Origin: Nitrospinota bacterium
Lineage (GTDB): Bacteria > Nitrospinota > Nitrospinia > Nitrospinales > JACRGP01
Length of the DNA: 37,537 nt
Direction of reading: 5' to 3'
NCBI GenBank assembly: GCA_016207065.1
Contig: JACQQK010000115.1
Coordinates: 1 to 37,537, forward strand
Shown here: positions 25,318 through 33,838 of the stretch, in pieces
Layout of the letters: each line of letters begins with the position of its first letter
Position numbering within the stretch: position 1 is the stretch's first letter
The notes under the pieces: generated by a model
What the model was told of the DNA's origin: nothing
Database searches by the model: none
The model's input: only the letters and a program-made list of their open reading frames with translations
Made by a program: the position numbers and the translations under genes

Positions 25318-27102
25318 TCACATGAACCAATGGAGGATTTTTTCCTCGTAGGCGCCGAACCACACCTGGATCTCGATGGGGACCAGGTTGTTGACGTAGG
25401 TCATGTATCCCATGGCCAGGGCGACTCCTAAAAAGACGAGGAGCGCGCCGCTGAACAGGTTCGTGGTGTGGAGCGGAAGCGTCCGGTTGCCGATTTTAAC
25501 GTCCCAGCCCTTGCCGCGGAGGATCCTCCAGAACAGGCCGTCCTTTTTGAGGTGGCCGAAAAACGTGGAAATCACGATCAGCGGGGAGCCCAGTCCAAGC
25601 GCGTAGAAGAAGAGCAGGGTCATCCCCTGGAGGACGGTTTTGTCCGAGGCGGCGAGGATGAGGATTCCGGAGAGGACGGGTCCCACGCACGGCGTCCAGC
25701 CCAGCGCGAAAGTCGCGCCGAACAGGAAAAAACCCGTGAAGGAGGACGCGGGTTTCTGCCGGAAATTGGCGCCCGAAAAGCCTTTGCCGAAAAGCGTCAT
25801 CACCCCGAATCCAGCGACCAGGACGCCGCCGGCCGTAGTGAGAGAAAACAGGTAATCGCGCAGAAGTTGCCCCATGAAGCTGGCGGAGGCCCCCATGAGG
25901 ACGAACAACGTCGCCAGCCCAAGGAAAAATGTCACCGACATGAGGGCCATGCGGGTCCGCTCGGTCTGCGCGGTGATGGCGAAGTAAGCCGGCAGAATGG
26001 GCAGGGTGCAGGGGGACAGGAAACTGAACAGCCCCGCCAGAAGAGAAAGAAGGACCAAAACCAGCATTCCCGATTGAGGAAGATTGGGTTTGGGTTCGAA
26101 GGGGTTGAAAGTTTTTACTTGGGACGCGGCTGACGGTTTTTCCGGCGACGCCGGTCCGGGCGGGTTCTTGGCCGATGCGCCTCCGGCGAACGGGGGGTTG
26201 GCGGCTGACGATGGGCCAGGCGAGCCCGCGGCCATTTTCCTCATGGCTTCCGGCATCTCGTCGCTGGCGCACCGGAACCCCAGGTCGAGCGACGCCTCGT
26301 CCGGGTTCAGGAACTGGCGGAAGCCGCCTCGCGCGAATTTTTTCAGCACGGCGAGGTACGAGGGGCCGGGGAAATGGCCGACGTCGGAAGCGGACCCCCC
26401 GCGGATGACTTTGTAACCGGCTTCGTAGTCCGGGGTTTTGTAAGAGCTTCCCTTGTAAGGGGCATAATTGTCCTGGGTCCACTCCCAGACGTTCCCGGCA
26501 AGGTCGCGGATCCCCAGCGGGGTGGAGCCTTGAGGAAAGGAGCCGACTTTAACCGGGGCGTTCTTGCTTCCTTGTTTGGGCGACAGGTTGGCGTAGTCGG
26601 CGTGAAATTCGTTGCCCCAGGGGTATTCGTTGCCGTTTTCTCCGCGCGCGGCCTTCTCCCATTCTTTTTCCGTCGGCAGGCGTTTACCCGCCCAGTCGCA
26701 AAAGTTCGCGGCGTCGAACCAGTTGACCCAGACGACGGGCCAGTCGCCCTTGCCTTCCGGATAGTCCTTTCCTTTCCAATCGGGAGGAGGAATGGCGCCG
26801 ACGGCGTCCACGAATATCTTGTACCGCCGGTTGGTGACTTCGTAGCGATCGATGTAGAAACCCTTGAGGAAAATCTTTTGTTGCGGCCCTTCGTCGATAT
26901 ACCAGGGTTTGGGTATACCCAGCGAGAGGGCTTCCCCCTCGATGTCTTGCGCGTCGGTCCCGAACAGGAAATTCCCCGGGGGGACCAGGACCATTTCGGC
27001 TTCCAGGGGGTTGAGGTTTTCGGGGGTCTGCGACCGGGCCTCCGGTTGGGCAAATAACAGGAGGGCAATGCAGATCAAACTGAAAGATAAAATCCGATTC
27101 AT
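25318..27102 (-). CDS. FGE-sulfatase-like domain fused to a CcdA-like thiol-disulfide membrane reductase
   Basis: The 594-residue protein has a signal peptide (to about residue 24) and a periplasmic formylglycine-generating-enzyme-like domain at about 35-285 (MVLVPPGNFLFGTD, YEVTNRRYKIFVDA, RLPTEKEWEKAAR, AGNVWEWTQD, VIRGGS, LGFRCAS). A Pro/Ala/Ser linker (about 285-340) leads to a CcdA-like domain with six or so helices. Both CcdA cysteines are present (SPC near 365, TPC near 472). The two catalytic FGE cysteines expected shortly after RGGS are absent, so formylglycine formation is unlikely. The CcdA part should pass electrons across the inner membrane, perhaps to the TlpA-like protein encoded just upstream. 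Confidence 0.88.
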   Translation of the reverse strand: MNRILSFSLICIALLLFAQPEARSQTPENLNPLEAEMVLVPPGNFLFGTDAQDIEGEALSLGIPKPWYIDEGPQQKIFLKGFYIDRYEVTNRRYKIFVDAVGAIPPPDWKGKDYPEGKGDWPVVWVNWFDAANFCDWAGKRLPTEKEWEKAARGENGNEYPWGNEFHADYANLSPKQGSKNAPVKVGSFPQGSTPLGIRDLAGNVWEWTQDNYAPYKGSSYKTPDYEAGYKVIRGGSASDVGHFPGPSYLAVLKKFARGGFRQFLNPDEASLDLGFRCASDEMPEAMRKMAAGSPGPSSAANPPFAGGASAKNPPGPASPEKPSAASQVKTFNPFEPKPNLPQSGMLVLVLLSLLAGLFSFLSPCTLPILPAYFAITAQTERTRMALMSVTFFLGLATLFVLMGASASFMGQLLRDYLFSLTTAGGVLVAGFGVMTLFGKGFSGANFRQKPASSFTGFFLFGATFALGWTPCVGPVLSGILILAASDKTVLQGMTLLFFYALGLGSPLIVISTFFGHLKKDGLFWRILRGKGWDVKIGNRTLPLHTTNLFSGALLVFLGVALAMGYMTYVNNLVPIEIQVWFGAYEEKILHWFM

Positions 27103-32675: not shown

Positions 32676-32751
32676 GGGCGGATAGCTCAGCTGGGAGAGC
32701 ATCGGCCTTACAAGCCGAGGGTCACAGGTTCGATCCCTGTTCCGCCTACCA
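32676..32751 (+). tRNA. tRNA-Val (anticodon TAC)
   Basis: A complete 76-base cloverleaf is visible. The acceptor stem is GGGCGGA with TCCGCCT (first pair G-U). The D arm is GCTC...GAGC. The anticodon stem TCGGC/GCCGA has loop CTTACAA giving anticodon TAC, which reads GUA and related Val codons. The T arm is ACAGG/CCTGT. The CCA end is encoded. It is transcribed together with tRNA-Asp. Confidence 0.96.
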
Positions 32752-32872: not shown

Positions 32873-32949
32873 GGGGTCGTAGTTCAGTTGGTTAGAACGC
32901 TGGCCTGTCACGTCAGAGGTCGCGAGTTCGAGTCTCGTCGGCCCCGCCA
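32873..32949 (+). tRNA. tRNA-Asp (anticodon GTC)
   Basis: The 77-base cloverleaf has acceptor stem GGGGTCG with CGGCCCC, discriminator G73 as expected for tRNA-Asp, anticodon stem CTGGC/GTCAG with loop CTGTCAC (anticodon GTC), T arm GCGAG/CTCGT and an encoded CCA. It follows tRNA-Val by 121 bases. Confidence 0.96.
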
Positions 32950-32957
32950 TTAATTTT

Positions 32958-32990
32958 AAAGGCCGCCCTTAACGGGGCGGCCTTTTTTTT
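32958..32990 (+). terminator. Rho-independent terminator of the tRNA operon
   Basis: An 11-base perfect stem (AAAGGCCGCCC with GGGCGGCCTTT), a 6-base loop and a run of eight T follow tRNA-Asp directly. On the other strand it ends in a T/A-rich stretch and may also stop transcription from the SprA-like gene. Confidence 0.9.
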
Positions 32991-33014: not shown

Positions 33015-33758
33015 TCAAGCGAAGATGTCGAGGAGCGAGCCGGTCGGGGACCGCCCCGGAGGGGGATGGTCCAACCCAGATTGCCCCCGATGGCGCTCAT
33101 TCGCCATCCGAGCCGGGCCCGTTGGCTCCGGCGCCTCGCCCCGCGCCGGGTCCGTCTGGCCCGGGCCGGGGTCCTTGGTCTCCTTGGTTTCCTCGGCGCG
33201 TTTTTCGGCCGCTTCCTGCTGGGCGCGCGCTTCCATGGCCTTGGCCTGCGCGGCGACCTGGACGTCCTGTCCGGACGGGTCCGCCGGGGCCAGGGCGGCC
33301 CGTTGAATGGCCTGGGCTTTCTGTATGGTCGCTTCGGGATCGCCCTTGACTTCCGAGGTGTCGATCGACACCTCCCCGCCGACGGCATATTGTTGCCCGT
33401 CCGGGCCTGTTTCGTATTGGAAGGAGGGCCCGCCCGCCGCGTAGGGCCCCGCCGCCGACAAATGGGCCTGCTCGTGGGCCCGGACCTGCCGGTCGCGCGC
33501 TTTTAATTGTTCGACAATTTTCAACTCCTCTTCCGTCAGCCCGCCTTTCAGCCTGGCCTCGTCGCAGTTCTGGCACGGCCCTTCCGGGGCGTGGTCGTGT
33601 TTTAGGACGACCGCGGAGGCGTCCGGTCCCAGCGTCACCTTGTCTCCCGGATCGCGGGAAGAGGTTTGGGGAGTGGAAGGAGGGTTTGCCGCGGGCCGGG
33701 TTTGACCGGTCCCGGCGCTGTTTCCTGGAACAAACTCCGGGGAGAAATTGATTTCCAT
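33015..33758 (-). CDS. SprA-related putative metalloprotease
   Basis: The 247-residue protein matches the SprA-related/CJM1_0395-type family in layout. A disordered Pro/Ser-rich N-terminus carries a CQNC pair, then a helix with HEQAH (about 95-99, a HExxH zinc motif) follows. The family block [31 protein letters not shown] and a [20 protein letters not shown] segment come next. An Ala/Glu/Gln-rich coiled region and a Gly/Pro-rich tail end the chain. No signal peptide is seen. The peptidase activity is unproven. A sigma-28-type promoter precedes it, suggesting co-regulation with flagellar genes. Confidence 0.85.
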
Positions 33759-33810
33759 GGCGGTTCGCGGATGAAGGGGGACCGAAAAAGCAGTTTTTAC
33801 CGTATCTGTC

Positions 33811-33838
33811 TTATCGGCGGCCGCCGATAAAAACTTTA
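33811..33838 (-). promoter_or_regulatory. Sigma-28 (FliA)-type promoter of the SprA-like gene, overlapping a 20-base palindrome
   Basis: Reading the minus strand, TAAAGTTT (33838-33831) is followed by 12 bases and GCCGATAA (33818-33811). Both boxes match the enterobacterial flagellar consensus at every base; the usual spacer is 11. The -10 box is half of a perfect 20-base palindrome TTATCGGCGGCCGCCGATAA (33811-33830). Transcription would start about 45 bases before the ATG at 33758. Confidence 0.65.

Follow-up and report, generated by a model that had tools for sequence, protein, structure and literature searches.

The sprA locus and its product

The window, by which we mean the whole 37,537-nucleotide stretch of DNA that was analysed, makes up contig C60 of a Nitrospinota MAG (2.96 Mb, 79.6% complete) that belongs to a groundwater relative of Nitrospina. 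Near one end of the window lies a gene of the SprA-related family, here called sprA; its features and those around it are summarized in Table 1. The nearest named record of the protein is from Nitrospinota bacterium NC_groundwater_1754 (76% identity across the entire SprA protein), and further close relatives carry the labels Nitrospinaceae and Nitrospina. Downstream of the sprA stop codon are a GC-rich hairpin, which is the terminator for the tRNAs when read on the plus strand, and two opposite-strand tRNA genes, the only matches in an Rfam scan of the window. Because the hairpin and the opposite-strand tRNA genes stand behind it, sprA is the sole apparent target of the promoter described below. 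On the upstream side, a divergent gene for an OmpR-type response regulator begins at about 33991 and is followed by a histidine kinase gene (Pfam). The sigma-70-like box of this response regulator gene was found on the plus strand only, and the corresponding scan of the minus strand gave no sigma-70 promoter for sprA. Elsewhere in the window, a single ORF (25318-27102) joins an FGE-sulfatase-like domain to a DsbD-type transmembrane domain.

Table 1. Features at and around the sprA promoter
Feature	Position	Strand	Details
Sigma-28 (FliA)-type promoter (putative)	33811..33838	-	-35 box TAAAGTTT (33838-33831), 12-base spacer, -10 box GCCGATAA (33818-33811)
Perfect 20-bp palindrome	33811..33830		TTATCGGCGGCCGCCGATAA; includes the -10 box; unconserved among homologous promoters
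Inferred 5' leader of sprA	33759..33803	-	Start assumed ~8 bases 3' of the -10 box
SprA-related (PF12118) gene, 247 aa	33015..33758	-	Pfam E 1.7e-34; alignments; HEQAH at residues 95-99
GC-rich hairpin	32958..32985		Between sprA and two convergent tRNA genes
tRNA genes, two	32676-32748 and 32873-32946	+	Rfam

The window protein matched PF12118 with 120.1 bits against a gathering score of 27.3. H95, E96, and H99 of its HExxH motif are invariant in an alignment of 42 members, as are G128 and V130, while D133 is nearly so. In the AlphaFold2 prediction, residues from about 76 to 195 form a confident core (core pLDDT above 90), made up in order of a helix, a beta hairpin, and two helices, and the ends are disordered. 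For PF12118, a zincin-like fold has been predicted by profile analysis (PMC3650047). The window protein shares the family profile and the HExxH motif, but a Foldseek search with its predicted structure gave no match to a solved structure, zincins included, at E <= 0.001. A sequence search against solved structures likewise returned nothing significant, and NCBIfam gave no match. Judged from the motif, though with no backing from the structure comparison, it is plausible that SprA is an active metallopeptidase. Many SprA proteins from distant phyla end in a short motif of the type G-x-LLDIFA (window residues 240-247; loci L108, L110, L120, and L149).

A probable sigma-28-type promoter upstream of sprA

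The minus strand upstream of sprA (33838-33811) reads TAAAGTTT TTATCGGCGGCC GCCGATAA. As the preliminary description had claimed, both boxes are exact, agreeing at 16/16 positions with the published E. coli sigma-28 consensus, TAAAGTTT-n11-GCCGATAA (PMC2859248). It had also correctly given the spacer as 12 bases, one more than the 11 of the consensus, and had placed the gene 53 bases further on; in fact 52 bases separate the -10 box from the ATG at 33758. Shuffling the window 100 times produced no exact match to the site. Under an independent-base model with three spacers allowed, about 0.001 exact matches are expected in the whole 2.96 Mb genome; with spacers of 10-14 the genome contains two, the sprA site and one at C115:11863.

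Within the order, PF12118 has members in 31 of 64 genomes. The upstream region was usable for 29 sprA genes, from loci that span families f1 to f4, and 24 of these, in four families, have a site of 13/16 or better in the 130 bp upstream. The same test on 200 dinucleotide shuffles gave 0.1 on average and never more than 1. Among control ORFs of the same loci, one of 160, a spurious ORF, had a site, namely that of a second sprA (contig C120); the remaining 159 had none. A chance match as the origin of the site is ruled out by this conservation together with the shuffles and the control ORFs. All of 26 sprA sites share bases T1, A3, A4, G5, and T6 in the -35 box and the CG in the -10 box. This logo is conditioned on the E. 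coli consensus by which the sites were found, so the argument leans on the shuffles and the control ORFs. The spacer is 11 bases at 24 of the 26 and 12 bases at two, both of them in the window genome. The same-genus sprA homologue has a 16/16 site with a spacer of 11; both boxes persist in the three nearest sprA promoters, whose spacers differ by one base. In addition, the ~40 bases just downstream of the -10 box are conserved with the promoters of genome G001 and C120.

No 13/16 site was found within 130 bp of five of the 29 genes. One of the five has a 12/16 site, and another is the second sprA, with a 15/16 site (spacer 12) 344 bp upstream; an insertion-like stretch with CCCCTTT-type repeats separates this site from the gene. 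The second sprA encodes a protein with 76% identity to the window protein. Since the C-terminal end of this protein resembles that of G001 more than that of the window protein, the gene may be a paralogue, or it may stem from a relative whose DNA is in the bin (contamination 2.85%). At this locus (L022, 278-621), the about 340 bp between site and sprA hold inverted CCCCCTTTGTCAAAGGGGG repeats, as if an element had inserted.

The -10 box is also one half of a palindrome that was absent from the preliminary description, with halves TTATCGGCGG and CCGCCGATAA and a NotI site at its centre. The palindrome is perfect, spans the -10 box, and lies in a divergent intergenic region adjoining the OmpR-type regulator gene; it could thus be imagined as the functional element, either a hairpin or an operator bound by a repressor or by the divergent response regulator, with the sigma-28 match as a by-product. 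We consider this highly improbable. The two nearest homologous promoters, those of the same-genus homologue and C120, keep both boxes and have lost the palindrome, its folding is no better than that of shuffles (z about -1), and palindrome-free sigma-28 sites occur across the whole order. As the palindrome is unconserved and folds in an ordinary way, an operator or hairpin was rejected. The site is very probably a FliA (sigma-28) promoter.

Spacer length and the flagellar regulon

Absence of fliA or flagellar genes from the genome, which the preliminary description named as refuting it, was checked and is not the case. The window genome encodes fliA (contig C62, E 4.8e-87), flagellins (six Flagellin_N matches), fliD, motA, flgM, and flaG, and sigma-28 sites occur in front of several of these genes. 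Those before fliD and motA have a spacer of 12, whereas those before flaG and a flagellin gene have a spacer of 11. A site before a gene for a YjfB-like motility protein, a weak family match, also has a spacer of 11, as does a site before flgM, the latter with three mismatches. With up to three mismatches allowed, the genome scan gave as many matches as the reversed control, so that only the top of the list is informative. Similar sites at C5:6046 (L059), C9:4003 (L060), and C115:11863 (L002) precede genes without a convincing Pfam match, which may also belong to the flagellar regulon. The YjfB-like protein, encoded on contig C142, has the C-terminus GGLIDTKA.

In order to place the 12-base spacer, the regions upstream of 30 fliD genes of the order (L180-L209) are informative: in all 30 promoters the spacer is exactly 12 bases long, and the boxes match at 13 to 16 positions. 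The same procedure applied to E. coli fliD and fliC gave the best score at a spacer of 11, with 14/16 matches each. Because 30/30 fliD promoters have 12 bases, we take the spacer at sprA to be a lineage variant of the same kind of promoter and not a defect. That the boxes are a decayed site, inactivated by the longer spacer, with sprA transcribed from another promoter, would accord with the published spacer of 11 (PMC2859248) and with the 11 bases at most sprA sites of the order. It is nevertheless very hard to reconcile with two perfect boxes, with the fliD promoters, with the 12-spacer site of motA in the same genome, and with a minus-strand sigma-70 scan in which no alternative sprA promoter appeared. 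The lineage variant is thus retained. The conserved 12-base fliD spacer appears to be new; it means that a spacer of this length can be fixed order-wide in front of a core flagellar gene, and promoter scans that demand 11 bases will therefore miss fliD in this order.

The sprA site shares all 16 box positions with the FliA class 3 promoters of E. coli, as well as a position tens of bases before the start codon and a setting with fliA, flgM, and sites before late flagellar genes. It differs from them in the spacer (11 in E. coli class 3, 12 at the window sprA), as does fliD of the lineage.

Distribution of the link and a proposed role for SprA

Intact sprA was found in 27 of 54 genomes with fliA and in one of 10 without it (p 0.03), a weak comparison, as it is confounded by completeness and shared ancestry. 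As only half of the fliA-bearing genomes have it intact, sprA is not essential for flagella. In G005, which is 98% complete, fliA is a 66-residue remnant with two stops and sprA a truncated remnant that lacks the HExxH part, while fliD is still present. An apparent second case of joint loss, G040, was dropped, as fliA may simply be missing from this 78% complete MAG. Outside Nitrospinota, a site of 13/16 or better in the 150 bp upstream occurs at eight of 67 homologous loci: Acidobacteriota, Cloacimonadota (two, both with a spacer of 12), Deltaproteobacteria, Gammaproteobacteria (three), and a MAG that carries the label Emcibacter. Among the 67 loci, those of Marinobacter and Methylomonas and most of the planctomycete homologues have no 13/16 site. 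Since only this minority carries a site, a family-wide rule outside Nitrospinota is ruled out, and control of sprA by FliA, as predicted from the sites, is recurrent and not universal.

The best reading is that sprA is a late flagellar gene with a predicted dependence on FliA. The notion that the promoter ties an HExxH family to the flagellar regulon is supported by fliA, the other regulon sites, and the conserved site; as a novelty for the whole family it does not stand. In Campylobacter jejuni, the SprA-related CJM1_0395 (CJJ81176_0441) was present in supernatants of the wild type and not of the flgG mutant, in two strains (PMC5223770). The two proteins share the family name, a predicted zinc metalloprotease core, and a flagellar link, but in C. 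jejuni, a pathogen, the link is secretion, whereas in the environmental Nitrospinota it is a promoter. The order-wide sigma-28 link of sprA appears to be new, and a literature search on Nitrospina with flagella and sigma 28 found nothing.

FliA, freed upon export of FlgM, would bind both boxes and so give rise to a short transcript of sprA alone, alongside those of the late flagellar genes. The HExxH protein, with its disordered ends and ordered core, would probably leave via the flagellar type III apparatus; if it works as a zinc metallopeptidase, its targets may be proteins of the filament, the cap, or the surface. A disordered N-terminus is expected of flagellar export substrates, and that of SprA is disordered in the AlphaFold2 prediction. 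Export through the flagellum is rated as likely, by a modest margin, because one distant relative, CJM1_0395, needs the flagellum to reach the supernatant. A less probable reading keeps FliA control and has the product stay inside the cell or leave by another route, in a regulatory or structural role; the secretion evidence for the family does come from a Campylobacter member and from no Nitrospinota member, and the SprA core matches no solved fold. Against this reading are the disordered N-terminus and the Campylobacter protein, which reaches the supernatant only with a flagellum (PMC5223770). The promoter link gives a widespread family that has no role assigned a functional handle: late flagellar timing, probable export, and a testable substrate space. 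It also agrees with the isolated Campylobacter secretome result from a distant phylum. Much more speculatively, and rather unlikely as a whole, SprA-related proteins could be flagellum-exported metallopeptidases of environmental bacteria, co-regulated by FliA with the filament cap; Nitrospinota FliA could use spacers of 11 and 12 to grade or time late genes, and sprA of the window genus could have moved to the fliD-type class.
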